Source: a bacterium (GTDB taxonomy: Bacteria; Pseudomonadota; Alphaproteobacteria; SP197). Taken from it: a stretch of 64,000 nt of DNA. A program made the translations under genes and the position numbers. Below the pieces are notes generated by a model. It was not told the origin of the DNA and ran no database searches. It worked only from the letters and a program-made list of their open reading frames with translations. The first letter of the stretch is position 1; every line of letters starts with the position of its first letter. Below are positions 844-27,248 of the stretch, one piece after another. Location: contig JAPPGE010000067.1 in assembly GCA_028821455.1 (NCBI GenBank), forward strand, positions 74,461 through 138,460. Direction: 5' to 3'.

Positions 844-1701
844 ATGGACCTCTACCGCGGCATGAATGCCGAAGAGCTGGAGTACCAGTACGAGCTGCGC
901 AGCAAGGAGGCCGATTTCGATTCCATTGTGGCGCGTTGGCTCGAGCGCAGCGCGGCACTGCGTGATTCCCGTGACGTGGCGATCGATCTCCCTTATGGAA
1001 GCGGTGAACGCGACAGGCTCGACCTCTTTCGTGCCGCCGCGGGCGGCCCGCTCCTCGTCTACATCCACGGCGGCTACTGGCAGCGCGGCGACAAGGACAT
1101 GTACAGCTTCGTCGCCGAGGCGTTCCTGGACGCCGGAGTCAATGTCGCGATGATCAACTACACGCTCACGCCGGCATGCCGTCTCGGCGACATCGCGCCT
1201 CAGGTGCGACGGTGCATCGCCTGGCTGTGGCACAATGCCGCCGACCTCGGTTTCGATCGCGAGCGCCTTTCGGTCATGGGACATTCGGCCGGCGGGCACC
1301 TGACGGCGATGATGATGGCGACGGACTGGCCGGCCTTCGACTCAGCCCTGCCGGGTGACCTCGTCCGCGCCGCCCTGCCGATCTCGGGGATTTTCGAACT
1401 CGAACCCCTGGTTCACACGTCGATCAATGCCGGACCACGGATGGATGTGGCCGAGGCAAGGCGCGAGAGTCCCCTGTTCATGGAGATGTTCTCCAACGCG
1501 CCCCATCTCGTCATCGCCGGCGGTGACGAAACCCCGGAATTCACCCGCCAGTCAGATGCCTACTGCGACCGCTTCCGCACGGAGCGGCGAACCATGGAAC
1601 GCCACGACGTTCCCGGTGAAAACCACTTTGGCGAACTCGAACGCCTAGCGGAATCAACGAGCGAGGTGTTCTCCCGCTCGCTGAAGCTTGTCGATCGATA
1701 A
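844..1701 (+). CDS. Alpha/beta hydrolase, arylformamidase (kynurenine formamidase)-like
   Basis: A 285-residue alpha/beta hydrolase. Numbered from the ATG at 844, the oxyanion-hole motif HGGYW is at 75-79 and the nucleophile elbow GHSAG at 146-150, with Ser148. A late Asp (GGDETPEF) and His (ENHFGE) complete a plausible triad. HGGYW with a compact size is typical of the KynB-like and carbamate/formamide hydrolase branch, so N-formylkynurenine or a similar formamide is a reasonable guess, but no other kynurenine genes are nearby. An upstream in-frame ATG at 793 would add 17 residues (MTIFVIQCFLHTG...) that look non-conserved, so I prefer 844. Its stop lies just before the regulator gene, suggesting co-transcription. 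Confidence 0.82.
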   Translation: MDLYRGMNAEELEYQYELRSKEADFDSIVARWLERSAALRDSRDVAIDLPYGSGERDRLDLFRAAAGGPLLVYIHGGYWQRGDKDMYSFVAEAFLDAGVNVAMINYTLTPACRLGDIAPQVRRCIAWLWHNAADLGFDRERLSVMGHSAGGHLTAMMMATDWPAFDSALPGDLVRAALPISGIFELEPLVHTSINAGPRMDVAEARRESPLFMEMFSNAPHLVIAGGDETPEFTRQSDAYCDRFRTERRTMERHDVPGENHFGELERLAESTSEVFSRSLKLVDR

Positions 1702-1714
1702 CGTGGAGGCGCCC

Positions 1715-2692
1715 TTGCTGCCGGGCGCCTTTCTCAGACAGGCGCCGGCTCTCGATCCTGCCGACCGCGCCATCGTCGAACACCTCCAGGAGGACGGCCG
1801 TCGATCCTTTGCGCGGATCGCCAGGGCGACGGACCTCACCGAGAAGACCGTGCGCAGCCGGGTGAGGCACCTCATTCATTCCGAAATCATCCAGATCGCC
1901 GCCGTGACCGACCCGCGCGCCCTTGGATATCACAGTTCCGCGCTCCTTGGCCTTGTCCTCGACCCTGCCGCACCGGCCTCGCGGACAGCCCGGAAACTGC
2001 TGTCCGTTGCCGTCATCGACTACGTCGTGGTGGCCACGGGCCGCTACGGCCTCTTCGCCGAAGTCATCTGCCACGACCGCCGTGAACTGCAGGACGTCAT
2101 CGAGAACCGGATCGGCAGGATCATCGGGATCCGGACAATCGAGAGCTTCCCCTACCTGTCGCTCCACTATCAGCTGGCAAACTTCGGCGCGGCGCGGCGC
2201 AAGTCCCTGCAGGAAGCAGGCGTCATCCCGCGCACCCTCGCCGCAACGGACCGCGACATTGTCAAGGCACTCTCCGAAGACGGGCGCATGCCGCTGCAGG
2301 CCGTGGCCGACAGGCTCGGCATCTCGGAATCCCAGGTTCGCAACAGGTTCAACGCCATGGCAGCGAACGGCGTCGTCAGCGTCATTGCCATCGTCAACCC
2401 GATGAGCCTGGGCTACGGAACCGTTGCCTGGGTCGCCGTGCATGTCGGCGGCGGCGTTCAGGCGCGCGACGTCGCCGACGGCCTGTCACGTCTTTCCCAC
2501 GTCACCTACGTGGCGATCTGTGCCGGACGATTCGATATCTTCACGGAGATTGCCTGCCGCGACGAGGCAGAACTTCTGGCCGTCATCGACGATGACATCC
2601 GGCCCCTCGACGGCGTCATGTCAGTCGAGGTCTCGATCTACCAGCACCTGCACTACAAGCGGCTGACACCCATCGGGCGCTCTCGAACCTGA
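1715..2692 (+). CDS. Double-domain Lrp/AsnC-family transcriptional regulator
   Basis: This protein contains two complete Lrp/AsnC units in one chain. Unit 1 has a winged HTH (DRAIVEHLQEDGRRSFARIA...KTVRSRVRHL) followed by a RAM-like ligand domain. Unit 2 repeats this (DRDIVKALSEDGRMPLQAVA...SQVRNRFNAM), then RAM to the C-terminus. Usual Lrp proteins are about 150-160 residues and dimerise or octamerise; a tandem fusion would give a built-in pseudodimer. I place the start at TTG 1715 because GGAGG lies five bases upstream (1705-1709); in-frame GTG 1703 or TTG 1688, inside the previous gene, are alternatives. It probably responds to an amino acid or related metabolite. The target is unknown; the overlapping hydrolase gene or the divergent flavin oxidoreductase are the nearest candidates. 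Confidence 0.88.
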   Translation: MLPGAFLRQAPALDPADRAIVEHLQEDGRRSFARIARATDLTEKTVRSRVRHLIHSEIIQIAAVTDPRALGYHSSALLGLVLDPAAPASRTARKLLSVAVIDYVVVATGRYGLFAEVICHDRRELQDVIENRIGRIIGIRTIESFPYLSLHYQLANFGAARRKSLQEAGVIPRTLAATDRDIVKALSEDGRMPLQAVADRLGISESQVRNRFNAMAANGVVSVIAIVNPMSLGYGTVAWVAVHVGGGVQARDVADGLSRLSHVTYVAICAGRFDIFTEIACRDEAELLAVIDDDIRPLDGVMSVEVSIYQHLHYKRLTPIGRSRT

Positions 2693-2712: not shown

Positions 2713-3558
2713 TCAGGAAGCCGCGCCGTCGTGTTGCTCCAGGTCGTCGGTGATGTCGTGCCAGGCGGCCTTGGACCCGACGAAGATATGAACGCCGGGT
2801 CTGATACCGGGATCATCCTCGAGGATGCCAAGGGGCACGATGGCCCAGGCGTGTTCGGAGACGACGTAGGGCATCTTCGATCCGCACACCTCGCAAAAGA
2901 CCTGGGTGTGGTATTGGGTGCCTGGCACACGGAAGCTCTTCAGATGGTCAATTCCTTGCGTGAAGTCCAGGTGCTGTATGTCGATCAGGCCATTCGAGGA
3001 ATGGGCCGCGGCGCGTCCCCGGCGGCAGAGGCTGCAATGACAGTTCCAGGCTGATCTGTAGGGACCGGTCGTCCGGAAGGCGACACGGCCGCACATGCAC
3101 CAACCCCGCACTACCCCCGGTGGCGGTGGCGGCACCGGATCCTCCTCGACCCTCGGGTAGCCGGTTTCCGGCGGATAGTCGTCATGACGGGGCAGGTCTC
3201 CCGTCACCTCGTGCCAGGGCGCGCCATGAGGCACGAAGATGTTGCAGTCCGACGGCTTGCCGTCGTCATGGCAGCCACCGGGGGCCACGACGTGCTGATC
3301 GTCTGCCTCGCCGGCATAGGGGACCACCGAGCCACACACGCCGCAAAATCGTCGGACCAGCATGTGGGACGAACGGTAGTCGACCGTAATGTCCTCGCCG
3401 CCGGTCATGCGGAGTTCCCCCTGGCGCATGAACCAGTAGGTTCCGAAGGCCGTGCCATGGGCCTTGCGGCACAGCTTGCAGTGGCAGTTGAACGCCTGGA
3501 ACGGCTCGGTAGCGAGTTCCCAGGTGACGCCGCCACACAGACACCGTCCGGTGTTCAT
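2713..3558 (-). CDS. Tandem GFA/CENP-V-fold zinc protein
   Basis: A 281-residue protein made of two GFA (glutathione-dependent formaldehyde-activating enzyme-like) domains. Each copy has the zinc-binding cysteine pattern: the first opens CLCGGVTW, then CHCKLCRKAHG and CGVCGS; the second has CMCGRVAF, then CHCSLCRRG and CEVCGS. A proline-rich linker (DPVPPPPPG) joins them. Most family members have one domain of about 120-150 residues; the fold binds one or two zinc ions and few members have a proven reaction, so formaldehyde-glutathione chemistry is only a family label. It ends 20 nt from the convergent regulator and lies 16 nt downstream of the SDR stop on the same strand, so the two may share a transcript. 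Confidence 0.88.
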   Translation of the reverse strand: MNTGRCLCGGVTWELATEPFQAFNCHCKLCRKAHGTAFGTYWFMRQGELRMTGGEDITVDYRSSHMLVRRFCGVCGSVVPYAGEADDQHVVAPGGCHDDGKPSDCNIFVPHGAPWHEVTGDLPRHDDYPPETGYPRVEEDPVPPPPPGVVRGWCMCGRVAFRTTGPYRSAWNCHCSLCRRGRAAAHSSNGLIDIQHLDFTQGIDHLKSFRVPGTQYHTQVFCEVCGSKMPYVVSEHAWAIVPLGILEDDPGIRPGVHIFVGSKAAWHDITDDLEQHDGAAS

Positions 3559-3574: not shown

Positions 3575-4300
3575 TCAGATCGTCCATGTTTCGCTGAAGG
3601 GTCTCAGTTCCACCTCGTTGCTCCATGCCGAAGGCGGCTGGCGATGCACCCACCAGTAGCTGTCCGCGACGCCATCAGGATCGGCCAGAGCGGCCGGATC
3701 ATGATGGAGCTTTCGCATGACCGGCACGTCGAGATCGCAGTCGAGTCTCATGTGAACGACATGGACGCCGTCCCGTGCGTGGGCCTTCGCAAGACTCTGC
3801 GCCAGGGCCCTCAGGGCGAACTTGCCGATGGCATAGAGCGGGTGGGTGGCGGATCCTCGAAAGGCGGCGGTGGCACTGGAAAACATGATGGTGCCGCTCC
3901 CTCTCGCGCGCATCGCCGGCAGTACCGAACGGGCCGCCGCGAAGGCGCCCATCACCTCCACCTGGAAGACCTCCTCGAGCTGGTCGTAGGTCATGTCCAG
4001 GGGATCGCAACGGATAAAGTCTCCACGGGCGTTGTAGATGAGGATCTCGATGGCGCCCATCTCTTCCGCAACCCGCGCCATGGCGTCCTCCACGGACACC
4101 GGACGGGTGGCGTCTGCGGCAAAATAGCGCACGTTCACAGAGCCGTTGGCAGCCCTTGCATGCCCCAGGGCAGGTTCGCTGCCCGAGCGTGTCCGTGACA
4201 CCAGGGCAATGTCACAGCCACCAACGGCGAACCGCGCCGCAAGCGAACGGCCAAGCCCCTCGCCGGCTCCGACAATGACACAGACAGGACGGTCGCTCAT
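3575..4300 (-). CDS. Short-chain dehydrogenase/reductase (SDR)
   Basis: A classical-type SDR of 241 residues from the ATG at 4300. The NAD(P)-binding glycine motif is GAGEGLG at 11-17. The usual NNAG is altered to YNARG (89-93). Catalytic Ser is in FSSAT (141/142), with Tyr156 and Lys160 in YAIGK. The C-terminus WSNEVELRPFSETW resembles oxidoreductases that act on small alcohols or ketones, but no substrate can be assigned. An in-frame extension to 4378 exists but lacks family similarity and would reach into the divergent promoter region, so I reject it. It is followed after 16 nt by the tandem GFA gene and is divergent from the PhyH dioxygenase gene. Confidence 0.85.
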   Translation of the reverse strand: MSDRPVCVIVGAGEGLGRSLAARFAVGGCDIALVSRTRSGSEPALGHARAANGSVNVRYFAADATRPVSVEDAMARVAEEMGAIEILIYNARGDFIRCDPLDMTYDQLEEVFQVEVMGAFAAARSVLPAMRARGSGTIMFSSATAAFRGSATHPLYAIGKFALRALAQSLAKAHARDGVHVVHMRLDCDLDVPVMRKLHHDPAALADPDGVADSYWWVHRQPPSAWSNEVELRPFSETWTI

Positions 4301-4479
4301 GGCGTGGATCATGGCACAGCCCGTGGCGGCATGACAGGCCGGGAAACTGGATGAACCGGCCCTTTGCCCGGGAGTCATTTCCTGCTGGCCTGGCCGCTTT
4401 AGTCTGCCCTATGATGCGCACACTCCGTGGATCACGCCGCGACCGGAGGCGCGATCCGGATGCGACTGCCGGAGGAACT

Positions 4480-5328
4480 GTGACGGCGATGAACCTTCCA
4501 GTCTTCGACGCGGCGGTGCCGGCGACTGCTGTCGTGGACGCCCTGCGCACCACCGGCGCAGCGGTCGTGACCGGCCTCCTCGATGCAGATGCTGTCGACT
4601 CCTGCGCGGCGGAAATGCGGCCCGAATTCGACGAACGCGGGCGCCAGCAGGAGAACGATTTCAACGGCTACCGCACCTTGCGCATTTCGAGCGTGCTGGG
4701 CTACACGCCTGCGGCGGCCCCGATGGTTGGCCATCCACTGGTGCTGGAGGTGGCTGATGCCATCCTCCTTCCGCATTGTCTTGCCTACCGGATCGGTAGC
4801 GCCACGGGGATCGAGATTCTTCCCGGCGAGAGCGATCAGGTTCTCCACCGTGACGACACGATCTATCCGATCCACATTCCGGGCATGGAATTCCAGATCG
4901 GCGTGATGTGGGCAATCGACGACTTCACCGAGGAGAACGGCGCCACCCGCGTCGCTCTGGGAAGCCACCGCCTCGCCGACCACGGCGACCCTGCCCTCTC
5001 GTGCGTGGTGCAGGCGTCGATGCCCAGGGGGTCGGCTCTCTTCTACATGGGTTCCCTGTGGCACGGCGGAGGAGCCAACCGATCGAACGGATCGCGCATG
5101 GGTCTCATCAACACCTATGCGCTGGGCTGGCTGCGACAGGAGGTGAACCAGTACCTCGCCGTGCCGCCGGGGGTTGCTGCGCGCTACGACAAGACCATCC
5201 GCCGACTCCTTGGCTACGCCAAGCACGGCGACATTCTGGGCTACGGACACCGCATTGGCGCGTCGCGTATCATAGGTGAGCCCGCGGGCGAACTGGATAA
5301 CGGACTCGACGTCTGGGTCTGGGACTGA
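4480..5328 (+). CDS. Phytanoyl-CoA dioxygenase (PhyH) family oxygenase
   Basis: A non-haem Fe(II)/2-oxoglutarate dioxygenase of about 282 residues. Numbered from GTG 4480, the iron-binding HxD is His123-Arg-Asp125 (LHRDDTIYP), the distal His is His195 (WHGGGANRS), and Arg206 probably binds 2-oxoglutarate. GTG 4480 follows GGAGGA closely; ATG 4489 (MNLPVF) is the alternative start. EctD, the ectoine hydroxylase, also belongs to PhyH, but this protein lacks the extended EctD signature around the HxD motif, so I do not call it EctD. It lies 86 nt upstream of the Rieske oxygenase in the same direction and is probably part of the same unit with the EctC-like gene. Confidence 0.85.
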   Translation: MTAMNLPVFDAAVPATAVVDALRTTGAAVVTGLLDADAVDSCAAEMRPEFDERGRQQENDFNGYRTLRISSVLGYTPAAAPMVGHPLVLEVADAILLPHCLAYRIGSATGIEILPGESDQVLHRDDTIYPIHIPGMEFQIGVMWAIDDFTEENGATRVALGSHRLADHGDPALSCVVQASMPRGSALFYMGSLWHGGGANRSNGSRMGLINTYALGWLRQEVNQYLAVPPGVAARYDKTIRRLLGYAKHGDILGYGHRIGASRIIGEPAGELDNGLDVWVWD

Positions 5329-5414
5329 CGGCCCGCCGGCAGCGATACGCACGGTTGTCCGGTTGCGGCGATTTGGCAATGATGCCGGCTGGCAGCGGCA
5401 CTGTTTATTGATCG

Positions 5415-6575
5415 ATGACGGCAATCGACACACTCCTTGGCGAATTGAAGGCGAACGCGGAACGTCCCTTCGCCGAAGCGCGGGCGGCGCCTCCCGGCAT
5501 CTATTCCAGCGAGGCGTTCCTGGCCCTGGAGAAGGAGCGGATCTTCTCCAGGGAGTGGATCTGCGCCGGCCGCGCCGATGCCATCCCCGAACGGGGTGAC
5601 TATCTCACCTTCAGTCTCGCCGATGAGCCGATCCTGATCGTGCGCGACCATGCCGGGGAGGTCTCGGCCTTCTCGAACGTCTGCCGGCACCGGATGAGCC
5701 TGCTCCTTGCCGGACGCGGCAACCGCAAGGTCATCACCTGCCCCTACCATGCGTGGTCCTACGGCCTCGACGGCCGCCTGCGCCACGCACCGTGGATGGA
5801 AAAGAGCCCGGCCTTCGACAAGCGCGACTATTGCCTGCCCCGCGTTCGCTGCGAAGTCTGGGACGGCTGGATCTACGTCACGCTGGATCCCGACATTCCG
5901 CCTCCGAAGGACCTGTTTCGGCCGGTGGAGGAGGTCGTCACGGGCCGCTACCGCTTCGCCGACTACACCGAGACCTTCCGGGAAGAGCATGTCTGGGAGA
6001 CGAACTGGAAGATTCTCGCCGAGAACTTCATGGAGAGCTATCACCTCTTCCAGCTCCACCGCGGGACCATCGGCGACCAGTCGAAGATCGAGGAGATGGA
6101 CATGCCGGCCGGGGACGCGGTGTTCAACTATCACTGGATCACCAAGGAATCCGACTTCCCGCTCGCCAACGCCCATCCCGACTGCGCCTACCTCGAGGGC
6201 GAGTGGCGCCGGACCACGGCGCTGATCACCATCTACCCCAGCCACATGATCACCCTCACTCCGGGATACTTCTGGTACCTGTCGTTGCAGCCGGATGGCC
6301 CCGGCCGGGTCAGGATTCTCTACGGTGGCGGCATGGCACCCGATTTCATCAACGATCCGAAGGGGGCCGAACACGTCGCCGAGGCCAAGAGGATTCTCGA
6401 TGCCGTCAACGAGGAGGACCGGGTGGGGACCGAAGCCGTGTTCAACGGCACCAGGGCCTCCCTGGCACGCCCCGGACACCTGAGTTATCTGGAACGCCCC
6501 AACTTCGAATTCTGCCAGTACCTCGCGCGCCGCATTGCCGGCAGCAACGCCCTGCCGGAAGCATCCGGTTCCTAG
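5415..6575 (+). CDS. Rieske [2Fe-2S] oxygenase alpha subunit, quaternary-amine type
   Basis: A 386-residue ring-hydroxylating-type oxygenase subunit. The Rieske cluster ligands are Cys90-x-His92 and Cys109-x2-His112. The mononuclear iron site is in NWKILAENFMESYHLFQLH, with His210 and His215. The residue that normally bridges Rieske and iron centres between subunits is Asp in aromatic dioxygenases; here Glu207 occupies it, as is known for carnitine monooxygenase CntA and related quaternary-ammonium oxygenases. This suggests demethylation or C-N cleavage of a betaine-like substrate (inference). No reductase gene is adjacent; the ferredoxin at 10331 is a possible electron donor. The EctC-like gene follows 13 nt downstream, which implies co-transcription. 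Confidence 0.9.
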   Translation: MTAIDTLLGELKANAERPFAEARAAPPGIYSSEAFLALEKERIFSREWICAGRADAIPERGDYLTFSLADEPILIVRDHAGEVSAFSNVCRHRMSLLLAGRGNRKVITCPYHAWSYGLDGRLRHAPWMEKSPAFDKRDYCLPRVRCEVWDGWIYVTLDPDIPPPKDLFRPVEEVVTGRYRFADYTETFREEHVWETNWKILAENFMESYHLFQLHRGTIGDQSKIEEMDMPAGDAVFNYHWITKESDFPLANAHPDCAYLEGEWRRTTALITIYPSHMITLTPGYFWYLSLQPDGPGRVRILYGGGMAPDFINDPKGAEHVAEAKRILDAVNEEDRVGTEAVFNGTRASLARPGHLSYLERPNFEFCQYLARRIAGSNALPEASGS

Positions 6576-6588
6576 AGAGGAGACTGAC

Positions 6589-7413
6589 ATGTTTGTTCGC
6601 ACCCTTGACGAGCGTCGCCGTGCCGGTGCCGAGAAGATCCTGTCCGAAGGCAGGGTCCGCTCGACCCGCTTTCTCACCATTCCCGACGGCATGGGTTTCA
6701 CCCTGTCGGATGTACGGGTCGCCGGCGGCATGTCCAGTGTCCTTTGGTACAGGCACCACTGGGAAGCGAACTACATCATTGCCGGCACGGGCACGGTGCG
6801 TGACCTTGAACGCGACCGGAGCTGGCCACTGGCTCCAGGCACGCTCTACACGGTCGGACCAACCGACCGTCATCGCGTCGACTCCGACGACGACCTGCAC
6901 CTCGTCAGCGTCTTCAATCCGCCTCTTGTCGGCGACGAGGCGCACGACAGCGACGGCGCCTACCCGCCGACCGGCCCGGTTCCCGAGGGCAGGGAATGCA
7001 TGTTCGTGAGGACCGTCGACGAACTCGTTGGCGAGGGACACCGGCTCGTGGTCGCCGGCGGCAGCGCCACGACGGTGCGCATGCTGTTGCGCGATGATGG
7101 TGTCGGGTTCTCGCTCAGCGACGTCCGCCTTGCGGCCGGCAGTCGCAATGTCCTGTGGTACAAGCACCACTGGGAGGCGAACTATGTTCTCGATGGCACG
7201 GGAGAGGTAACGAACCTTGGCTCCGGAGAGGCCTGGCAGATGGAGCCCGGAATGATGTACTGCGTCGGTCCCGAGGACCGCCACAGCATGCATGCCTTCA
7301 GCGACCTCCACCTGCTGTCCATCTTCTGCCCGCCGCTGAGGGGAGACGAACAGCACGACGCCGATGGCGCCCTGGCCGCCAGCGGCGATGCGGTGCCTCC
7401 CGGCCCGGGCTGA
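6589..7413 (+). CDS. Tandem ectoine-synthase-like (EctC) double cupin
   Basis: A 274-residue protein with two full EctC-like cupins in one chain (about 1-130 and 138-265). EctC uses Glu57, Tyr85 and His93 to bind iron. Equivalent residues are Glu59, Tyr87 and His95 in domain 1, and Glu196, Tyr224 and His232 in domain 2. The typical WYxxHxEAxY segment and the (F)NPPLxGxExHD tail are also present. Some substrate-pocket residues of authentic EctC (the Trp and Thr near its residues 21 and 40) seem replaced, so cyclisation of N-acetyl-diaminobutyrate is doubtful. There is no ectA, ectB or ask gene in the window. The start ATG 6589 follows GAGAGGAG. It is convergent with the tauD pair, leaving 6 nt between stops. 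Confidence 0.88.
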   Translation: MFVRTLDERRRAGAEKILSEGRVRSTRFLTIPDGMGFTLSDVRVAGGMSSVLWYRHHWEANYIIAGTGTVRDLERDRSWPLAPGTLYTVGPTDRHRVDSDDDLHLVSVFNPPLVGDEAHDSDGAYPPTGPVPEGRECMFVRTVDELVGEGHRLVVAGGSATTVRMLLRDDGVGFSLSDVRLAAGSRNVLWYKHHWEANYVLDGTGEVTNLGSGEAWQMEPGMMYCVGPEDRHSMHAFSDLHLLSIFCPPLRGDEQHDADGALAASGDAVPPGPG

Positions 7414-7419
7414 CAGGCG

Positions 7420-8274
7420 TCAGGCAGCGAGAGGGCGCGACCCTTTCAGCGTCACGCGATACATGACCCGTTCTTCAGGGCCGTAGTCCCTGGCGGCGTA
7501 GTGCATCGTGCAACGGTTGTCCCAGAATGCCACGTCGCCCTCGGACCAGGTCCAGCGCACCTGGAACGACGACTGCTCCACGTGCTCGAGAAGAAGGTTC
7601 AGCAGTCCGCGGCCCTCGATATCGGGCAAACCGAGGATCCGCCTGGTGAAGCCGCGATTGACGTAGAGCGCGCGGCGTCCCGATTCGGGATGGCGCACCA
7701 CCACGGGATGAACGCTTCCCGGATAGTCGCGCTTGAGCGTCTGCAGACGTTCAGGGCCATCCGCGGCGCCGGATTCGAGGAGGTAGGGGGTGAAGGTCGG
7801 GACACCGTCGTGGAAGGCCTGAAGGCCGTCGACGGCCCTCTTGAAGCGCTCGGACAGGGCATCCCATGCGGCGTACATCGACATGAAGAGCGTGTCGCCG
7901 CCGACGGACGGCAGGGTTTCCGCCTGCAGCATCGAGGCGGCCGGCGGGGTTTCGTCGAACGTCACGTCGCTGTGCCAGGTGGCGTTGAAGATCGCGTCGC
8001 CCTCTCCGTCGCGGGTGGCCGTGACCATCACGTCCGGGTTGTCGGGGTGTCGCTCAAGCCCGGGGTGCAGCGGCTCGATGTCGCCGAAACGCGAGGCTGC
8101 ATGCACCAGTTCGTCAGGTGACAAGCCCTGGCGCGGAAAGAACAGGACCTTGTGTTCGAGCCAGGCCTCGCGCAAGGCCGCGACCGTGCCATCGTCAAGG
8201 CATCTCAGATCGATCCCGGAGATTTCTGCGCCAATGTGACCGGTCAGAGGACGGATGTTGCCCATACCCACCAT
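7420..8274 (-). CDS. TauD/TfdA-family 2-oxoglutarate dioxygenase, copy 2
   Basis: A 284-residue Fe(II)/2-oxoglutarate dioxygenase. The iron triad is His101-x-Asp103 (WHSDVTFDE) and His258 (TMHYAARDYG), and Arg273 should bind the 2-oxoglutarate carboxylate. Family substrates include taurine, alkyl sulfates, 2,4-D and gamma-butyrobetaine, so the substrate is open. It is a close paralogue of the gene just upstream (8311-9165): same length, the same residue numbers for all ligands, and long shared stretches. The start ATG 8274 has GGGAG upstream. It is the last gene of a probable fdx-mnmA-tauD-tauD transcript. Confidence 0.9.
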   Translation of the reverse strand: MVGMGNIRPLTGHIGAEISGIDLRCLDDGTVAALREAWLEHKVLFFPRQGLSPDELVHAASRFGDIEPLHPGLERHPDNPDVMVTATRDGEGDAIFNATWHSDVTFDETPPAASMLQAETLPSVGGDTLFMSMYAAWDALSERFKRAVDGLQAFHDGVPTFTPYLLESGAADGPERLQTLKRDYPGSVHPVVVRHPESGRRALYVNRGFTRRILGLPDIEGRGLLNLLLEHVEQSSFQVRWTWSEGDVAFWDNRCTMHYAARDYGPEERVMYRVTLKGSRPLAA

Positions 8275-8310
8275 GTCCGACTCCCTTTCCTGTTGGCCCG
8301 GTGACCCCGC

Positions 8311-9165
8311 TTATGCAGCCAGGGGACGGGCGCCCTTCAGGGTCACGCGATGCATGATCCGGTCGTGAAGGCCATAGTCGAAGGCGGCGTAGTGCATGGT
8401 AGAGCGGTTGTCCCAGATCGCGACATCGCCTCTCGACCAGGACCACCGCACCTGGAACGAAGCCTGTTCGCAATGCTCGATCAGGAGGTTCAACAATCCG
8501 CGGCTCTCGATATCCGGCAGGCCGAGGATCCGCTGCGTGAAGGCGCGGTTGACGAAGAGCGCCCGGCGGCCTGTCTCGGGGTGGCGCACCACGACCGGAT
8601 GAACGCATCCGGCATGCTCGCGCTTGAGGTTCTCCAGACGCCGGGGCCCGTCCGGCGTACCCGGATCGAGAAGATAGGAGGTGAAACTGGGAATACCGTC
8701 GTGGAATGCCTCCAGACCCTCGACCGTCGCCTTCAGGCGCGGTGACAGGGCGTCGTAGGCCGCCTCCATCGACGTGAAGAGTGTATCGCCGCCGACCGGG
8801 GGCAGCGTCCTGGCGTGCAGTATCGAGGCCGCGGGCGGCATCTCGTCGAACGTGACGTCGCTGTGCCAGATGGCGTTGAACTTGCCACCGCCCTCTCCCT
8901 TGCGGCTCGCAGCGATCATCACGGCGGGATTGTCGGGGTGGCGTTCAAGCCCGGAGTGTGGATGATCGATCTCACCGAAGCAGGACGCCACGCGCACCAG
9001 GTCATCGGCCGACAACTCCTGGCGTGGAAAGAACAGGACCTTGTGTTCGAGCCATGCCTCGCGCAGGGCGGCGACCATAGTCCCGTCGAGTCGCCCGAGA
9101 TCGATCCCGGAGATCTCCGCGCCGATATGACCGGCCAGGGGCCGGATGTTGCCTGAGACCACCAT
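8311..9165 (-). CDS. TauD/TfdA-family 2-oxoglutarate dioxygenase, copy 1
   Basis: The upstream member of the tandem pair, also 284 residues, with His101, Asp103, His258 and Arg273 in the same positions. Differences from its partner are concentrated in the stretch around residues 64-95 and in 165-190, regions that could alter the substrate pocket. Start ATG 9165 has a strong AGGAGG in the 15-nt gap after the mnmA stop, so it is probably translated from the mnmA transcript. Both copies keep every catalytic residue, so neither looks decayed; they may have split substrates or serve gene dosage. Confidence 0.9.
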   Translation of the reverse strand: MVVSGNIRPLAGHIGAEISGIDLGRLDGTMVAALREAWLEHKVLFFPRQELSADDLVRVASCFGEIDHPHSGLERHPDNPAVMIAASRKGEGGGKFNAIWHSDVTFDEMPPAASILHARTLPPVGGDTLFTSMEAAYDALSPRLKATVEGLEAFHDGIPSFTSYLLDPGTPDGPRRLENLKREHAGCVHPVVVRHPETGRRALFVNRAFTQRILGLPDIESRGLLNLLIEHCEQASFQVRWSWSRGDVAIWDNRSTMHYAAFDYGLHDRIMHRVTLKGARPLAA

Positions 9166-9180: not shown

Positions 9181-10329
9181 TCAGGGGCGGGAGTCGGCGC
9201 TTGCGCGCTGTGGCACGGAACTCTGTCCTCCCCCTCTCTCGATCCAGCCGCCACCGAGAAGGCGGCTGCCGTCATACATGACACAGGCCTGGCCCGGGGC
9301 GATGGCCTCGGCGGGCCGGGCGAGCTCGACCCTGGCGCGGTCGTCCCCAAGGGGCAGCACCCGCGCCGGCAGGCGCTCCTGGCGCGAGCGCAACTGGACA
9401 CTGCACGCCACGCCATCCCGAGGCAGGGTTCCCCGACCGATCCAGTTGACGTCCTTCATGGTGAGAGACGACGACTCGAGGGCCTCGCGGGGACCGACGA
9501 CCACCTGGCGGCGTTCCGGATCCAGCGACACCACGAACAGCGGTTCACCCGTGGCAATGCCGAGCCGCCGTCTCTGCCCGACGGTGTAGTGGGCGATTCC
9601 GTCATGGTGACCCAGAACGCGGCCGGAAAGATCGACGATCGTGCCCGCCTCCATGGCGCCGGGGCGCAGGCGGTCAACGATATCCGTATAGCGTCCCTGC
9701 GGCACGAAGCAGATGTCCTGGCTGTCCGGCTTGGCCGACACCGACAGCCCGAACCGCCTGGCGCAGGCCCGCACCTCGTCCTTGGTCATGCCGCCCAGCG
9801 GAAACCGCAGGTCCTGCAACTGGTGCCGGGTTGTCCGGAAGAGAAAGTAGCTCTGGTCGCGGCCGGTTTCGGCACCGCAGTGGAGTTCCGGTCCTTCATG
9901 CCCCTCGATGCGCCGGACGTAGTGTCCGGTTGCCAGGCAATCACCACCAAGTTCCCGCGCCGTCGTCAGCAGATCGGAAAACTTGACCCCCTGGTTGCAG
10001 AGCACGCAGGGGACCGGCGTCTCTCCGGCAAGGTAGCTGTCGGCGAACGCCTCCATCACGGATGACCGGAACCGCTCCTGGTAGTCGAGAACGTAGTGCG
10101 GAATGTCGAGCGTCGCGGCCACGCGGCGGGCATCGCGGATGTCGGCTCCGGCACAGCAGGCGCCGGGTCGGGAGGCCGACCTGCCCTGATCGTAGAGTTG
10201 CAGCGTCACGCCGATGGTCTCGTGACCCTCGGCCTTGAGGAGGGCGGCGACAACCGAACTGTCGACCCCTCCGGACATGGCAACAATGGCGCGTCTGCCC
10301 GTGGAACGGCCCGGTGTCATGGCAGGCAT
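9181..10329 (-). CDS. mnmA: tRNA-specific 2-thiouridylase MnmA
   Basis: A 382-residue PP-loop enzyme that thiolates U34 of tRNA-Lys, -Glu and -Gln in the cytoplasm, using sulfur relayed from a cysteine desulfurase. The ATP pyrophosphatase motif SGGVDSS is at 19-25. The catalytic cysteine in LCNQGVKF is Cys111 and the second, in DICFVPQG, is Cys207; this pair forms the persulfide relay. The C-terminal beta-barrel is complete. The start at 10329 lies 1 nt from the fdx stop; an in-frame ATG three codons in is possible. The order fdx-mnmA may reflect shared use of sulfur-transfer chemistry (inference). Confidence 0.96.
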   Translation of the reverse strand: MPAMTPGRSTGRRAIVAMSGGVDSSVVAALLKAEGHETIGVTLQLYDQGRSASRPGACCAGADIRDARRVAATLDIPHYVLDYQERFRSSVMEAFADSYLAGETPVPCVLCNQGVKFSDLLTTARELGGDCLATGHYVRRIEGHEGPELHCGAETGRDQSYFLFRTTRHQLQDLRFPLGGMTKDEVRACARRFGLSVSAKPDSQDICFVPQGRYTDIVDRLRPGAMEAGTIVDLSGRVLGHHDGIAHYTVGQRRRLGIATGEPLFVVSLDPERRQVVVGPREALESSSLTMKDVNWIGRGTLPRDGVACSVQLRSRQERLPARVLPLGDDRARVELARPAEAIAPGQACVMYDGSRLLGGGWIERGGGQSSVPQRASADSRP

Positions 10330-10995: not shown

Positions 10996-12051
10996 ATGAA
11001 AGTGATCAACATCAAGCGTGCAGCCGCGGCCCTTGTCATCGGCTTTGCGGCATCGGCCCATGCGGAAGGAGAACTCAGTGTCCTGACCTGGGAAGGCTAC
11101 ACCGACCCCAGCTTTGTCGAGCCGTTCACTGAGGCCACAGGATGCGCGGTGACACCAACCTACGTCGGCTCCAACGACGAGTTCCCGGCAAAACTCGCCG
11201 GGGGCGGCGGGGTCTATGACCTTGTCTCACCGTCGGTTGACACCACCACGATCCTGATGAAGGCGGGGCTCGTCGAGGAAATCGACGTCAGCCGTATCGA
11301 CCACTGGGGCGAGATCTACGAACAGTTCCGCAACCATGTCGGCGTCAACTACGAGGGCGGGGTCTACGGCGTTCCGTTCACATGGGGATCGATCCCGTTC
11401 ATGTATCGTGCGGACCGGTTCGATGAGGCACCCGACAGCATCGCCTCCTTCTGGGAGGATGAATCCCTGTCAGGCGCTATCAGCTTGTGGGACGACAAGA
11501 CCAACATCTACATCGTCGCCCGCCTCCTCTTCGGCACGGATGTCAATGTCTACGACCTCTCCGATGACCAGCTGGCCGCGGTACGCGACAAGCTCATCGC
11601 CCTCAAACCGCACATCCGCAAGTTCTGGTCGACTGCGGGCGAACTCGTGAACCTCTATGCCAACGGCGAGGTCACGATTTCCAACACCTGGGGGGGATAC
11701 CAGTCCTCGCTGCTGGCCGAACAGGATATCGAGATGGTCGAGTTCATTCCGGTCGAGAAGGCCGATGGCTGGGCGGATGCATGGCAGATCGTCAAGGGTA
11801 CGCCGAACGCTGACTGTGCTTATGAATGGCTCAACTACGCGACGGCATCCGGTGGTCAGTGCGGCGTTGTCGGCGTGACCGGCTATTCCGGATCAAATCC
11901 CGTCGTGCTTCGCGAATGCCTCGACGAAGCGACCTTCGAGGCGCTTAACCAGGCCGACTTCAAGTACATCGACGGACTCGTCCTGTGGGAGGAGCCGGCA
12001 CGGGTCGACGCCTATATCAACACCTGGAACGCCATCAAGGCGGCCCAGTAG
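10996..12051 (+). CDS. PotD/PotF-type ABC transporter substrate-binding protein
   Basis: A 351-residue periplasmic binding protein with a Sec signal peptide (MKVINIKRAAAALVIGFAAS, predicted cut after AHA near 23). The mature part begins EGELSVLTWEGYTDPSFVEP, the usual opening of PotD-like proteins that bind putrescine, spermidine or related cationic solutes. Aromatic residues likely to frame the ligand are plentiful (SNTWGGYQSS, GWADAWQI), but no assignment to a specific polyamine is safe. ATG 10996 follows GGAGGAG; upstream frame extension lacks a signal sequence and is rejected. It is followed by a strong hairpin and then by the ATPase and two permeases, a complete importer. The Rieske and glutamine-synthetase-like genes nearby make an amine ligand plausible. 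Confidence 0.92.
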   Translation: MKVINIKRAAAALVIGFAASAHAEGELSVLTWEGYTDPSFVEPFTEATGCAVTPTYVGSNDEFPAKLAGGGGVYDLVSPSVDTTTILMKAGLVEEIDVSRIDHWGEIYEQFRNHVGVNYEGGVYGVPFTWGSIPFMYRADRFDEAPDSIASFWEDESLSGAISLWDDKTNIYIVARLLFGTDVNVYDLSDDQLAAVRDKLIALKPHIRKFWSTAGELVNLYANGEVTISNTWGGYQSSLLAEQDIEMVEFIPVEKADGWADAWQIVKGTPNADCAYEWLNYATASGGQCGVVGVTGYSGSNPVVLRECLDEATFEALNQADFKYIDGLVLWEEPARVDAYINTWNAIKAAQ

Positions 12052-12068
12052 ACACCTGTCCCAGGCAT

Positions 12069-12104
12069 GGCGGCCGGCCTTCTTGCCGAAGGGGGCCGGC
12101 CGCC
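12069..12104 (+). promoter_or_regulatory. Intercistronic hairpin after the binding-protein gene
   Basis: A perfect 11-bp stem (GGCGGCCGGCC at 12069-12079 with GGCCGGCCGCC at 12094-12104), extended inside by a short TTC/GAA pairing. It lies wholly between the binding-protein stop and the ATPase start, and has no T-run. Such hairpins often protect the 3' end of the abundant binding-protein message or reduce read-through to the ATPase and permease genes. A similar element occurs in the same place in the AEP transporter (23123-23144). Confidence 0.7.
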
Positions 12105-12116
12105 CGATGACGCGAC

Positions 12117-13241
12117 ATGACCAGCATCCTGGAACTCCACCACCTCTCCAAGATCTTCCGGGGAGGAGTCGTGGCGGTCGACGACCTCTCGCTCGACATC
12201 CGTGAGGGCGAGTTCCTGACAATGCTTGGCCCCTCGGGCTGTGGCAAGACGACGACACTGCGCATGATCGGCGGATTCGAATATCCCGACGCCGGTTCGG
12301 TCATGCTCGACGGCCGGGACATCACGAACGATCCACCGTACAGCCGTCCGGTGAACATGATGTTCCAGGATTTTGCCCTGTTCCCCCATATGACGGCCGA
12401 GGAGAACATAGGATACGGACTGAAGATCGCCGGCGTCGGCAAGACTCCGACCGCCGAGAGGGTTCGTGCCATGCTCGACATGATCGAGCTCCCGGGCATG
12501 GGGGCACGCTTTCCATCGGAGCTCTCGGTCGGCCAGCAGCAACGGGTGGCGCTCGCCCGCGCACTCGTCAACAATCCCCGCATCCTGCTGCTTGACGAAC
12601 CGATGTCGGCTCTCGACGCGAAGCTGAAGGAATCGATGCAGGTCGAACTGCGTCACATTCACGACCGGGTGGGGATCACCTTCGTGATGGTGACCCACGA
12701 CCAGACCGAGGCGATGATCATGTCGGACCGCATCATGGTGATGCATGCAGGCCGCATCGAACAGATCGGAACTCCCACCGATCTCTACGATCATCCCCGG
12801 ACCGCCTACGTTGCCGAGTTCCTCGGCGCCTCCAACATGATCCCTGCCACCATCAGGCGCGACGGTGGCGACGTCGTGGCATGCGCGGGCTCCATGACCG
12901 TCCGCCTCGACCGCAACACCGGTGACAGCGGCACGCGATCATTGTTCATGCGCCCGGAGAAGATCCGGCTGGTGCCCCGGGAGAGCGAGGCCGGAGACGG
13001 GTCCAGCACGTTCTCGGGAACCGTGAAGGAGCTTTTCTTCAGCGGCAACATGGTCCGTATCGACCTCGACGTGGGTGCCGAAAGACCCGTGATCGTCCAC
13101 CGGCAACTCGACACCGAACTCGCTGCGGCGGGCCTGCCGGGTGTCGGTGACATCGTCACCTGCGCGGTCAATCCAGAAGCACTGAAACTGTTCGACACTG
13201 CCGAGGTCGCCGCCATGAAGGCCGAAGAGGCCGCGGCATGA
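12117..13241 (+). CDS. ABC transporter ATP-binding protein (PotA-like)
   Basis: A 374-residue ATPase of the spermidine/putrescine-type importer. Walker A GPSGCGKTT is at 38-46, the signature LSVGQ at 136-140, and Walker B LLLDEP at 157-162, followed by the H-loop VTHDQTEA. The C-terminal part (from about 240) is a TOBE/OB-type regulatory domain (RPEKIRLVPRE). The frame opens MTSILELHHLSKIF. Its stop overlaps the first permease start by 4 nt (ATGA at 13238), so translation is coupled. It energises the importer whose binding protein is encoded at 10996. Confidence 0.95.
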   Translation: MTSILELHHLSKIFRGGVVAVDDLSLDIREGEFLTMLGPSGCGKTTTLRMIGGFEYPDAGSVMLDGRDITNDPPYSRPVNMMFQDFALFPHMTAEENIGYGLKIAGVGKTPTAERVRAMLDMIELPGMGARFPSELSVGQQQRVALARALVNNPRILLLDEPMSALDAKLKESMQVELRHIHDRVGITFVMVTHDQTEAMIMSDRIMVMHAGRIEQIGTPTDLYDHPRTAYVAEFLGASNMIPATIRRDGGDVVACAGSMTVRLDRNTGDSGTRSLFMRPEKIRLVPRESEAGDGSSTFSGTVKELFFSGNMVRIDLDVGAERPVIVHRQLDTELAAAGLPGVGDIVTCAVNPEALKLFDTAEVAAMKAEEAAA

Positions 13242-14107
13242 AACCACGCACTAGACGGCTCCTGAACTTCTGGTCCCTCTTTACGGGACCAGCGCTCTGG
13301 TGGGGCACGGTGCTGCTGGTTCCCTACCTCATGATGCTGGCGATCAGCTTCTATACCCGCCAGTTCCCCTTCCACGTACCGGACTTCCAGTTCGGCAACT
13401 ACGTGACACTGATTGCGGATTCCCAGTACTTCACGGTCCTCCTGCGCAGCCTGTGGATCGCGCTGGCGGTGTCCGTCACCACGTTCTGCCTGAGCTACCC
13501 CCTCGCCTACTTCCTGGCCTTCAAGGTGCGCTCCAACCGGTTGCGTCTCTTTCTCTACACGGCCGCCATCGTGCCGCTGTGGGTGAGTTACCTGCTTCGG
13601 GCCTACACGTGGAAGACGATTCTCGGCAGCGAGGGCATCCTCAACTCCTTTCTCATGTGGATCGGGATCATCAGCGAGCCTTCCACCATCTTCCTCTACA
13701 ATCAGGGCGCGATGGTGGTGACCATGGCCTACATCTTCACGCCGTTCATGGTGATGCCGATCTATGCCTCCCTCGAGAAGATTCCACGCAGTCTCATCGA
13801 GGCCTCGAAGGACCTCGGCGCACCGCGTTTCACGACATTCCGCAAGATCACGCTGCCGCTTTCGATGCCTGGCGTCCTGGCCGGATTCACCTTCACGTTC
13901 GGGCTTTCGATCGGTGATTTCATCTCGCCCATCCTCGTCGGCGGTCCCTACTCCAACATGATTGCCAACGTCGTGGCGACGCAGTTCGGCATGGCGATGA
14001 ACTGGCCTCTGGGTTCGGCGCTGGGCGTCGTCCTCCTCGTCATTGTCCTCGGCATCATCACGGCCTCCGACAAGCTGGAACGGATCGGCCGGATCAACCT
14101 CGGCTAG
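13238..14107 (+). CDS. ABC transporter permease (PotB-like)
   Basis: A 289-residue inner-membrane permease with about six membrane spans; the first is around residues 20-40 (GTVLLVPYLMMLAISFY). The EAA cytoplasmic loop that docks on the ATPase is EASKDLGAPRFTTFRKITLPLS. The fold and the order ATPase-permease-permease match the PotB role. It overlaps the ATPase gene by 4 nt and is followed after 10 nt by the second permease. Confidence 0.94.
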   Translation: MKPRTRRLLNFWSLFTGPALWWGTVLLVPYLMMLAISFYTRQFPFHVPDFQFGNYVTLIADSQYFTVLLRSLWIALAVSVTTFCLSYPLAYFLAFKVRSNRLRLFLYTAAIVPLWVSYLLRAYTWKTILGSEGILNSFLMWIGIISEPSTIFLYNQGAMVVTMAYIFTPFMVMPIYASLEKIPRSLIEASKDLGAPRFTTFRKITLPLSMPGVLAGFTFTFGLSIGDFISPILVGGPYSNMIANVVATQFGMAMNWPLGSALGVVLLVIVLGIITASDKLERIGRINLG

Positions 14108-14117
14108 GAGACCTCTC

Positions 14118-14966
14118 ATGGCGACCGTCACCTTGCATGACGCCGGGACGCGCAAGAAGCCGATCGATGCCGGCACGACGGGACTGGGTGTCGCCGCGCT
14201 GTGCGTCCTGGCATTCCTCTACACCCCGATTGCCACGCTGATCGTCTTCAGCTTCAACTCGAACTCCATCACGCGCCTGCCGCTCGAGGACTTCACCTTC
14301 GACTGGTACACCCGGGCACTGGGCAATCCCGACCTCATGACGGCTGTCTGGAACTCGGTGTTTGTCGGCGTGTCGGCGGTGATGATCTGCCTTGCCATCG
14401 GCATCCCGACGGCACTTGCCCTGGATCGCCATGACTTTCCCGGCAAGACGGTGTTTCGCCGTCTCGTCATCCTTCCCATCACCCTGCCGGGGCTGATCAC
14501 CGGCGTGTCGATGCTGACGTTCTTCCGCTCGGTGGGAGTGGATCTCAGCATCTGGACCGTCATCATCGGCCACGGGACAGCGTTGACGGCCATCGTCGTC
14601 ACCAATGTCTTTGCCCGGCTGCAGCGATTCGACCGACGCATCGAGGAAGCCTCGGCCGATCTCGGCGCCCGGCCATGGCAGACATTCCGTCATGTCACGC
14701 TGCCCAACATCCGCTCGGCCATCATCGGTTCCTCGCTGATCTCGTTCACGCTCTCGTTCGACGAGATTCCGGTGACATTCTTCCTGACCGGACGCGACAA
14801 TACGCTGCCGATGTACATCTGGTCGGTCATCCGTCGCGGCATCACGCCGGAAATCAATGCGGTCGGCACGATCATCGTCATCGTCTCGATCACGCTCATC
14901 CTGATCTCGGTCTTCATGATGCACCGCGAGAATGACAGGGCAGGCCCTGTTCGCCCGGCCAGATGA
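14118..14966 (+). CDS. ABC transporter permease (PotC-like)
   Basis: A 282-residue second permease of the same importer. Membrane spans are visible near residues 18-38, 70-95 and onward, and the EAA loop is EASADLGARPWQTFRHVTLPNI. I place the start at ATG 14118 (MATVTLHDAGTRKK) because TAGGAG lies nine bases before; a longer in-frame start at 14043 would sit deep inside the previous gene. It ends MMHRENDRAGPVRPAR. The stop overlaps the ATG of a 54-codon frame with a twin-arginine-like start (see 14963-15127). Confidence 0.93.
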   Translation: MATVTLHDAGTRKKPIDAGTTGLGVAALCVLAFLYTPIATLIVFSFNSNSITRLPLEDFTFDWYTRALGNPDLMTAVWNSVFVGVSAVMICLAIGIPTALALDRHDFPGKTVFRRLVILPITLPGLITGVSMLTFFRSVGVDLSIWTVIIGHGTALTAIVVTNVFARLQRFDRRIEEASADLGARPWQTFRHVTLPNIRSAIIGSSLISFTLSFDEIPVTFFLTGRDNTLPMYIWSVIRRGITPEINAVGTIIVIVSITLILISVFMMHRENDRAGPVRPAR

Positions 14967-22081: not shown

Positions 22082-23104
22082 ATGTTGCGTAAAGCACCAC
22101 TGGCGGTCTCGTTCGCCGCGGCCGCGCTGTTCTGGACGGCGGCGAACGCTCAGACCGAACTGACTGTCTATACCGCCTTCGAGGCCGAGGACCTCAAGCG
22201 CTACGCCGATACCTTCAACGAGGACCATCCCGACATCACCATCAACTGGGTGCGGGACTCCACGGGAATCGTCACGGCGAAACTGCTGGCCGAGAAGAAC
22301 AATCCGCAGGCCGATGTCGTGTGGGGACTGGCCGCCACGTCGCTGCTGCTGCTCAAGAGCGAGGGCATGCTTGAGCCCTATGCTCCGGTGGGCGTGGAGT
22401 TGCTCGATCCCAAGTTCGTCGACAATGACGATCCGCCGGCCTGGGTCGGCCAGGATGCCTGGGTCGCGTCGATCTGCTTCAACACCGTCGAGGGCGAGGC
22501 CAACGGCCTGACCGCGCCAGAATCCTGGAGGGACCTCTTGGACCCGATGTACAGGGGCCACGTGATCATGCCGAACCCGAACTCTTCCGGCACCGGATTT
22601 CTCGACGTGTCGAGCTGGCTGCAGATGTTCGGCGAGGAGGAGGGCTGGGCCTTCATGGACGCCCTCCACGAGAACATCGCCCGCTACACCCATTCGGGCT
22701 CGAAGCCCTGCAAGCTGGCCGCCGCCGGCGAGATCCCGATCGGCGTGTCCTTCGCCTTCCGCGGCGCCAAGTCGAAGGCCGCCGGCGCACCGCTCGAGAT
22801 CATCGTGCCGAGCGAAGGCGTGGGCTGGGACATGGAAGCCGGTGGCATCATCGCCGGAACCGCCAATCTCGAGGCCGCGCAGACCCTGCTGGACTGGGCC
22901 GTGACCCGCAAGGCGATGGAGATGTACAACGTCGGCTATGCGGTGATCGCCATGCCCGGCGTCGCCAAGCCGGTCGAGCATTTCCCTGAAGGTCTGCTTG
23001 ACGCCATGATCGACAACGACTTCGAGTGGGCCGCCAACAACCGCGCCGCGATCCTCGCCGAATGGCAGTCGCGGTACGACGGCAAGTCGGAGCCCAAGAG
23101 CTAA
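22082..23104 (+). CDS. phnS: 2-aminoethylphosphonate ABC transporter substrate-binding protein
   Basis: A 340-residue periplasmic protein with a signal peptide (first 23 residues, cut after NAQ or ANA). The mature N-terminus is TELTVYTAFEAEDLKRYADTF, the form seen in iron/phosphonate-type class binding proteins, and PNPNSSGTGFLDV is a ligand-loop segment common to the AEP-specific group. The following ATPase and double permease and the downstream phnW-phnA-phnY genes support AEP as ligand. ATG 22082 is set by GGGGAG and by the signal peptide; the longer frame to 21950 is rejected. Confidence 0.88.
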   Translation: MLRKAPLAVSFAAAALFWTAANAQTELTVYTAFEAEDLKRYADTFNEDHPDITINWVRDSTGIVTAKLLAEKNNPQADVVWGLAATSLLLLKSEGMLEPYAPVGVELLDPKFVDNDDPPAWVGQDAWVASICFNTVEGEANGLTAPESWRDLLDPMYRGHVIMPNPNSSGTGFLDVSSWLQMFGEEEGWAFMDALHENIARYTHSGSKPCKLAAAGEIPIGVSFAFRGAKSKAAGAPLEIIVPSEGVGWDMEAGGIIAGTANLEAAQTLLDWAVTRKAMEMYNVGYAVIAMPGVAKPVEHFPEGLLDAMIDNDFEWAANNRAAILAEWQSRYDGKSEPKS

Positions 23105-23122
23105 GGCTTGATCCGGGTTCTA

Positions 23123-23144
23123 CGGGGCGGCGCGAGCCGCCCCG
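23123..23144 (+). promoter_or_regulatory. Intercistronic hairpin after the AEP binding-protein gene
   Basis: A perfect 9-bp GC stem, CGGGGCGGC and GCCGCCCCG, closes a GCGA tetraloop of the stable GNRA class. It sits 18 nt after the binding-protein stop and before the ATPase gene, with no T-run. It probably stabilises the upstream message or limits read-through, so that the binding protein exceeds the other components. Confidence 0.7.
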
Positions 23145-23175
23145 TCCCCGTCCGCTTCGACCGGGGATCAGCCCC

Positions 23176-24279
23176 ATGACTGTCACTCTCACCCCGGATG
23201 TCAGTCTGCAAATCTCCGGATTGTGGAAGACCTTCGGGGATTTCGTGGCTTTGAAGGACATCTCGCTCGAGGTGATGGATGGTGAGTTCGTCTGTTTCCT
23301 GGGGCCGTCGGGCTGTGGCAAGACCACGTTGCTCAGAGCCATCGCCGGACTCGATCTGCAGACACGGGGTACCGTCATCCAGGACGGCAGGGACGTGTCC
23401 GCCCTGCCGCCCTCGCAGCGGGACTTCGGGATTGTCTTCCAGTCCTACGCTCTCTTCCCGAACCTCACCGTCCACCGCAACATCGCCTACGGTCTCGAGA
23501 ACCAGGGGCGCACCAGGAGCGAGATCCGGGCGCGGGTGGCGGAACTGCTGGAGACCATGGGACTGCCCGACCAGAGCGACAAGTATCCGGCCCAGCTGTC
23601 CGGTGGACAGCAGCAACGGGTGGCGCTGGCCCGGGCGATCGCCACCTCGCCCGGTCTGCTGCTGCTCGACGAACCCCTGTCGGCGCTGGATGCCAAGGTA
23701 CGGGTGCGTCTGCGCCACGAGATCAAGGACCTGCAGCGCAGGCTGGGCGTGACCACGATCATGGTGACCCACGATCAGGAAGAGGCGCTCTCGATGGCCG
23801 ACCGGATTGTCGTCATGAACCACGGCGTCATCGAGCAGATCGGCTCGCCGACAGCGGTCTACCGCGATCCAGTGTCGCTGTTCGTCGCCGGTTTCATCGG
23901 CGAGATGAACCAGTTCGACGCCCGCGTCGTCGACAGCGGCAGGGTGCGGGTCGGCCAGAGCGAGTTCTGTTGCCGCACCCATGACCACGAGGCCGGCGCA
24001 GCGGTCGTCGCGGCCATCCGGCCCGACGAGATCGTGCCGCTCGGCACCGGGTACCGGCCTTCTCCCGAAGACGTCAACTGCGAGAAAGTCACCCTGGCCG
24101 ACATGGCGTTCCTGGGGTCCTTCTGGCGCTGCCTTCTCCACAGCGAGGATTTCGGCAGAGAGGCGCTGATGGCCGATTTCCCGACGAACGCCGTGCGACG
24201 CCTGTCGCTCGAAGCCGGTCAGGACATTCACGTCTCTCTCCAGGAATCCGGCCTCATGGCCTTTGCCCGAGATGTCTGA
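23176..24279 (+). CDS. phnT: AEP ABC transporter ATP-binding protein
   Basis: A 367-residue ATPase. Walker A GPSGCGKT is at 43-50, the LSGGQ signature at 141-145, Walker B LLLLDEP at 161-167, and the H-loop VTHDQEEA follows. The last 120 residues form a TOBE-like regulatory domain. It powers AEP import with the products of the flanking genes. ATG 23176 is the start at the family N-terminus (MTVTLTPDVSLQISGLWKTF); a frame extending to 23026 runs into the previous gene. It overlaps the permease start by 8 nt. Confidence 0.92.
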   Translation: MTVTLTPDVSLQISGLWKTFGDFVALKDISLEVMDGEFVCFLGPSGCGKTTLLRAIAGLDLQTRGTVIQDGRDVSALPPSQRDFGIVFQSYALFPNLTVHRNIAYGLENQGRTRSEIRARVAELLETMGLPDQSDKYPAQLSGGQQQRVALARAIATSPGLLLLDEPLSALDAKVRVRLRHEIKDLQRRLGVTTIMVTHDQEEALSMADRIVVMNHGVIEQIGSPTAVYRDPVSLFVAGFIGEMNQFDARVVDSGRVRVGQSEFCCRTHDHEAGAAVVAAIRPDEIVPLGTGYRPSPEDVNCEKVTLADMAFLGSFWRCLLHSEDFGREALMADFPTNAVRRLSLEAGQDIHVSLQESGLMAFARDV

Positions 24280-27158: not shown

Positions 27159-27180
27159 GGTCGACAGACTATCCATAAAT

Positions 27181-27196
27181 TGAATTGATCGATTCA
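27181..27196. promoter_or_regulatory. Candidate LysR operator in the lysR-phnW gap
   Basis: TGAATTGATCGATTCA is a 16-bp dyad with one imperfect pair, in the only AT-rich stretch of the region. It lies 23 bases from the lysR start and 53 bases before phnW. LysR proteins bind dyads of the T-N11-A type between divergent genes, which this fits. It may serve both autorepression and phnW activation (inference). Confidence 0.55.
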
Positions 27197-27248
27197 TCGT
27201 AAGGTAAGATTTTATCCCGGACCAGCACGGGTGCTATCCGGTGGTGCC

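Follow-up and report, generated by a model that had tools for sequence, protein, structure and literature searches.

A fused double EctC-like protein encoded directly behind a Rieske oxygenase: a variant of the orphan EctC class with a possible role in amine catabolism

The EctC protein of P. lautus is a cupin whose iron is bound by Glu57, Tyr84 and His92 and whose substrate is contacted by Trp21, Arg25, Asn38, Thr40, Tyr52 and Glu57; replacement of Trp21 by Ala leaves 9.7% of the activity (PMC6344544). EctC can also form ADPC from glutamine in a reversible reaction whose equilibrium favours the hydrolysed form; homoectoine and DHMICA are further compounds that it hydrolyses (PMC5924519). Relatives of EctC occur outside ect clusters. 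The survey by Czech et al. lists 145 such orphan EctC-type proteins, including that of P. syringae, and describes Trp21 as conserved among them, sometimes shifted by two positions. The main structural paper on EctC states the function of the orphan proteins as an open question (PMC6344544). Here we describe a locus in which two EctC domains are fused in one protein, designated EctC2, whose gene lies behind that of a Rieske oxygenase. Neither fused double EctCs nor tandem arrays are mentioned in the accessible part of the Czech et al. survey, and a search of the literature on double EctC proteins, EctC with Rieske enzymes and homarine-type pathways yielded nothing direct. The double EctC is a new variant of a class that is known but unexplained.

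The window, a stretch of 64,000 nucleotides of contig JAPPGE010000067.1, belongs to an alphaproteobacterial genome of 4.36 Mb that is 98.6% complete (G000). An earlier note on this DNA had described an oxygenase island with a PhyH dioxygenase, a Rieske oxygenase, a double EctC-like protein and twin TauD dioxygenases, and this gene content was borne out by Pfam and NCBIfam matches. On the forward strand, a gene for a PhyH-type 2-oxoglutarate dioxygenase (4489-5328; PF05721, 87.6 bits) is followed after 86 nt by the gene for the alpha subunit of a Rieske oxygenase of the quaternary-amine type (5415-6575; PF00355 and PF00848). The start of the EctC2 gene (6589-7413; 274 aa) lies 13 nt beyond the Rieske stop codon, as the note had reported, and the two genes are probably cotranscribed. 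Two genes for TauD-family dioxygenases (7420-8274 and 8311-9165; PF02668, 226 and 219.5 bits, respectively) lie on the reverse strand and point towards the EctC2 gene and are therefore outside its operon. The PotD/A/B/C-type ABC importer (10996-14966, forward strand) that had been placed next to the island was present but was separated from it by mnmA (9181-10278, reverse strand). Upstream of the island are genes for an Lrp/AsnC regulator with two complete modules in one chain (1688-2692, forward strand), a two-domain GFA protein (2713-3558, reverse strand; PF04828) and an SDR oxidoreductase (3575-4312, reverse strand). The two-module regulator is a candidate for control of the locus, and the GFA protein is possibly a formaldehyde-related neighbour. 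Elsewhere in the window (22082-32450), a full cluster for 2-aminoethylphosphonate uptake and catabolism was detected, comprising phnS2, phnT2, phnU2, phnW, phnA (phosphonoacetate hydrolase), a phosphonoacetaldehyde dehydrogenase gene and pbfA, with every gene scoring over its NCBIfam cut-off.

In three sister loci (L003, L004 and L007; 86-88% identity), the block running from the Lrp gene, through the SDR gene, to mnmA is conserved. Comparison with the three sister genomes gave dN/dS values of 0.17-0.20 for EctC2; those of the Rieske gene were 0.14-0.20, and both lie near the 0.17 of mnmA, indicating that both are working genes. The combined range for EctC2, PhyH and the Rieske oxygenase (0.14-0.20) resembled that of the housekeeping gene mnmA and is that of purifying selection. 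Since the gene order is also kept in the three sister genomes, the gene content described in the note is no accident of the sequence.

EctC2 matched PF06339 in two domains, with a score of 236.6 bits against a cut-off of 27, and matched NF009806 with 243.7 bits. Residues are numbered here as in P. lautus EctC, which provided the best solved relatives (5ONM-5ONO). The metal ligands Glu57, Tyr84 and His92 are present in both the N-terminal half (aa 1-130; 6589-6978, forward strand) and the C-terminal half (aa 138-265; 7000-7383, forward strand), as are Tyr52 and Arg25; EctC2 also retains Phe106, His55 and the GxExHD motif of the C-terminal EctC lid. In contrast, three substrate residues of the P. 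lautus enzyme are replaced in both halves, Trp21 by Val in the N-terminal and Ala in the C-terminal half, Asn38 by Ser and Thr40 by Val in each. The C-terminal half also has Thr in place of Ser23. EctC2 shares a Ser at position 104 with the orphan proteins and differs from them at position 21. In an alignment of all 48 double EctC genes collected, no Trp was found at this position in any readable half, a few halves being unreadable where genes had been called too short at the start. As Trp21 is reported to be conserved in the orphans, the double EctCs look like a separate group. The metal ligands were mostly kept across the alignment, with the exception of one paralogue clade (L080:9915-10727, L085:10903-11715, L086:7505-8326 and L082:4497-5306). 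The N-terminal half carries H92Y in all four members of this clade and E57K in three.

In an AlphaFold model of EctC2 (mean pLDDT of 95), the strands are arranged as in two cupin barrels. The best full-length structural matches were quercetin dioxygenase, oxalate decarboxylase and (S)-ureidoglycine aminohydrolase, with TM scores of about 0.7. These bicupins likewise have two barrels per chain, but the matches were at only 8-17% identity, with 11-17% for the comparison with ureidoglycine aminohydrolase and other bicupins, and the metal ligands of these proteins differ from those of EctC2. The matches to the model show the architecture of EctC2 and not its reaction; the variety of chemistries among them, with dioxygenases at one end and aminohydrolases at the other, weighs against the catabolic reading favoured below.

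Across the whole G000 genome, ectA was absent, no gene scored above the curated ectB cut-off, and the EctC2 gene was the only match to PF06339. The absence of ectA and ectB noticed at the island thus extends to the genome, and there is no ectAB operon for which EctC2 could serve as the only EctC; the presence of one would, according to the earlier note, have spoken against its view. As ectAB is missing and the substrate-reading residues are replaced, the claim that this protein does not act in ectoine synthesis held up; the prediction that EctC2 is not an ectoine synthase is well supported by genome context and residues. Known ectoine catabolism in the host was also ruled out, as no ectoine hydrolase (EutD/DoeA) was found over the cut-off in G000 (best score, 144 of 613 bits). 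The PhyH protein had no NCBIfam match, and EctD was absent among its 45 solved-structure matches, ruling out its identity with EctD. Described ectoine catabolic clusters (eutABCDE/doeABCD with an AsnC regulator) resemble the present system in the Lrp/AsnC gene near the window locus and in the AstE/AspA hydrolases of relatives. They differ in their EutD, of which G000 has none over the cut-off, in their DoeB, to which the AstE/AspA-like proteins are only distantly related, and in having an M24-type hydrolase where an EctC-like protein is found here.

A scan of the genome collection detected 14 double-EctC loci. Within the host's order, 13 of the 16 genomes encode a double EctC; two others (G005 and G015) have single-domain matches only and one (G008) has none. 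Full-length double EctCs were restricted to two families in a class sample of 385 genomes and, at an E value of <= 1e-40, to the window's genome in a phylum sample of 398. The contig scan of the collection also detected them in metagenome-assembled genomes labelled Hyphomicrobiales and Gammaproteobacteria. Tandem arrays were observed in several relatives. In G002, six double EctCs lie within 6.2 kb, five of them adjacent and the sixth past a GcvT gene; G012 has four, and so does each of two loci from beyond the host's family. The tree contained about five old double-EctC paralogue groups in the host's family, of which the window lineage keeps one.

The nearest solved structure to the Rieske protein was that of the carnitine monooxygenase CntA. 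In group Va Rieske enzymes, an aromatic residue at CntA position 203 holds the quaternary ammonium group. The motif ENFMESYH of the window protein places a Phe at this position (Y203 in CntA, a pi-cation contact) and includes the bridging Glu of group V (CntA, OxyBAC, GbcA and Stc2). This motif was identical in 12 of 13 orthologues, that is, in all those from which it was extracted, the fragmentary G009 copy being outside the count. By motif and nearest solved relative, the protein appears to be of the quaternary-amine, group V-like type. It differs from described members in its low similarity to them, and the Cys-X-X-Cys found beside the mononuclear iron in some is missing, with ESYHL where ECYHC would be expected. 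No Rieske reductase, of the CntB type or otherwise, was seen among the locus genes that were examined, which weighs against the pairing described below. The nearest NCBIfam model was that of GbcA (NF058607), and a score of 139 bits against a cut-off of 670 ruled out identity with glycine betaine monooxygenase.

Orthologues of the window Rieske protein (63-92% identity) were present in exactly those 13 of the 16 order genomes that have a double EctC, the G009 orthologue (77%) being a fragment at the edge of a contig. In the remaining three, the best Rieske match was a paralogue of 44-46% identity. The orthologue lies within 10 kb of a double EctC in 9 of the 13 genomes, in two different gene arrangements. 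One is that of the window; in the other, AstE/AspA-family genes, a small cupin gene and, in some genomes, a GcvT-type gene surround at least one double EctC. The gap between the two genes is 1-13 nt in four genomes. In G001-G004 the Rieske orthologue and the double EctC are on separate contigs, and hence linkage is not demonstrated there. In G008, an in-frame deletion scar (L111:11879-12175) joins the Rieske N terminus to the final part of a GST gene, with everything between lost; a single deletion removed both genes, and this event therefore gives no independent support for co-occurrence. Proximity to a Rieske gene says little by itself, because G000 has 43 Rieske homologues (about one per 100 kb; 20-52 per genome in the order), and the weight of the pairing comes only from orthology and tight spacing. 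The co-occurrence rests on few independent evolutionary events, which, like the wealth of Rieske genes, limits confidence. Other Rieske genes near double EctCs, in G003 and G004 and in the second family, were rejected as the same gene at 31-33% identity, and for that of the second family the reciprocal comparison with G000 had another gene as best match. An apparent Rieske-GcvT fusion in L087 (817 aa) was also discarded; its extra part is upstream sequence without a domain match and hence a start-site artefact. A gene of the M24 family resembling the DMSP lyase gene dddP (399 of 600 bits) was observed in G003 (L107:2628-3875), where the Rieske orthologue is about 6 kb away.

The conserved linkage that the earlier note had proposed as a check was thus found in relatives for the Rieske oxygenase and the double EctC. 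It did not extend to the TauD genes, and the picture of a single oxygenase island was not sustained. TauD 1 (7420-8274) is missing in L003 and decayed in L004 and is at best accessory, while TauD 2 (8311-9165) is present in all four closest genomes; neither reached the cut-off of 313 bits for taurine dioxygenase NF007104 (285 and 271 bits). A version of the Pot importer with 51-55% identity was present in one sister genome. The sister genomes ruled out the TauD proteins and the importer as conserved partners of EctC2. PhyH is retained in all three sister genomes but adjoins the Rieske and EctC2 pair in only two. In L003, a 5.7-kb stretch splits PhyH from the Rieske gene, and genes of an aromatic meta-cleavage type (BphC-like, aldehyde dehydrogenase, FAA hydrolase and RraA-like) lie between them at L003:3285-7694. 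For the remaining oxygenases and the importer, the data show proximity to the pair, not partnership. A relative of the SDR (67-70%) adjoins a double EctC in L013. The genes beside the double-EctC arrays of relatives encode GcvT (PF01571), AstE/AspA (PF24827), small cupin and SDR proteins. The sole NCBIfam relative of the AstE/AspA-like proteins was DoeB/EutE, and the score of 32 of 403 bits ruled out their identity with DoeB. The closest models to the GcvT-like protein were trimethylamine N-oxide demethylase, GcvT and DMSP demethylase. Relatives of the GcvT and AstE genes are carried by G000 on contigs other than that of the window. GcvT orthologues were patchily distributed, and AstE genes remain in G008 despite the loss of EctC2.

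The explanation that we tentatively favour, with a little less than even confidence, is that EctC2 is a metal-dependent bicupin derived from an orphan EctC and acts with the Rieske oxygenase to break down a small nitrogen compound, either an N-methylated or a cyclic amine. The Rieske enzyme would oxidise or demethylate this substrate, and EctC2 may then hydrolyse, or close, an amide- or amidine-type bond in the product. As EctC chemistry is reversible, a doubled and re-tuned EctC in the company of a Rieske oxygenase could act hydrolytically on an amide or amidine that oxidation has formed or exposed. In relatives, the AstE/AspA-like amidohydrolases and the GcvT-like protein might take the released acyl and C1 units. 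That the substrate broken down resembles a betaine or an amino acid, as the earlier note suggested, is something we still infer, made likelier by the Rieske type and by the GcvT and AstE-family neighbours in relatives.

Among the explanations considered, we rank this catabolic role first, at the same somewhat less than even strength. That the double EctC is an unrelated gene behind a Rieske gene, the two having been kept together by common descent, is unlikely. The abundance of Rieske homologues in 4.36 Mb, the split of the pair between contigs in G001-G004 and the divergence of the nearby Rieske genes in G003, G004 and the other family would fit such an accident, but one specific orthologue recurs within 10 kb in nine genomes despite two quite different arrangements, its gap to the EctC2 gene is 1-13 nt in four, and co-occurrence is perfect across the 16 genomes. 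A smaller chance is given to a bicupin with other metal chemistry (that of a dioxygenase, lyase or aminohydrolase) and no EctC-like condensation or hydrolysis. The identity of the top full-length structural matches, the changed substrate pocket and the clade without intact ligands in one half are consistent with it; however, the Glu/Tyr/His ligands and the lid are kept, against the His-rich sites of those bicupins, and matches of such low identity show the fold only.

The EctC2 arrays could also be cyclodehydratases acting on a small natural product, with PhyH and the Rieske enzyme as tailoring oxygenases. Ring closure is the native direction of EctC, the closest solved relatives of PhyH include the fungal biosynthetic enzymes SwnH1 and SptF, and up to six diverged double EctCs lie close by each other. 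Such a biosynthetic role is nevertheless improbable: no carrier-protein, NRPS/PKS or amino-acid ligase gene was seen among the genes examined near the island, and the GcvT and AstE families are typically catabolic. It is highly improbable that EctC2 is a salvage ectoine synthase, cyclising imported N-gamma-ADABA in the way proposed for Pseudomonas syringae and its solitary EctC. This orphan precedent (PMC5924519), the PF06339 and NF009806 scores well over cut-off and the retained metal ligands, Tyr52, Arg25, Phe106 and His55 speak for such a function. It is opposed by the replacement of Trp21, Asn38 and Thr40 in both halves, by partner genes that are oxidative or hydrolytic and by several diverged tandem paralogues, which are hard to square with a single product.

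Returning to the favoured catabolic reading, a bolder form of it, which we consider rather doubtful, is that double EctCs are a distinct class opening or closing cyclic amidine or amide rings in an unknown aerobic pathway for N-methylated amines. A dedicated Rieske oxygenase would begin this pathway, and different members of the four- to six-gene arrays may handle different substrates. The locus indicates that a strong EctC match need not mean ectoine production, as a genome-annotation model would call EctC2 an ectoine synthase. It points to a few candidate partners and one conserved gene pair, and its residue changes predict a different substrate. If double EctCs are indeed such a distinct class, this would be the first catabolic role for orphan EctC proteins.
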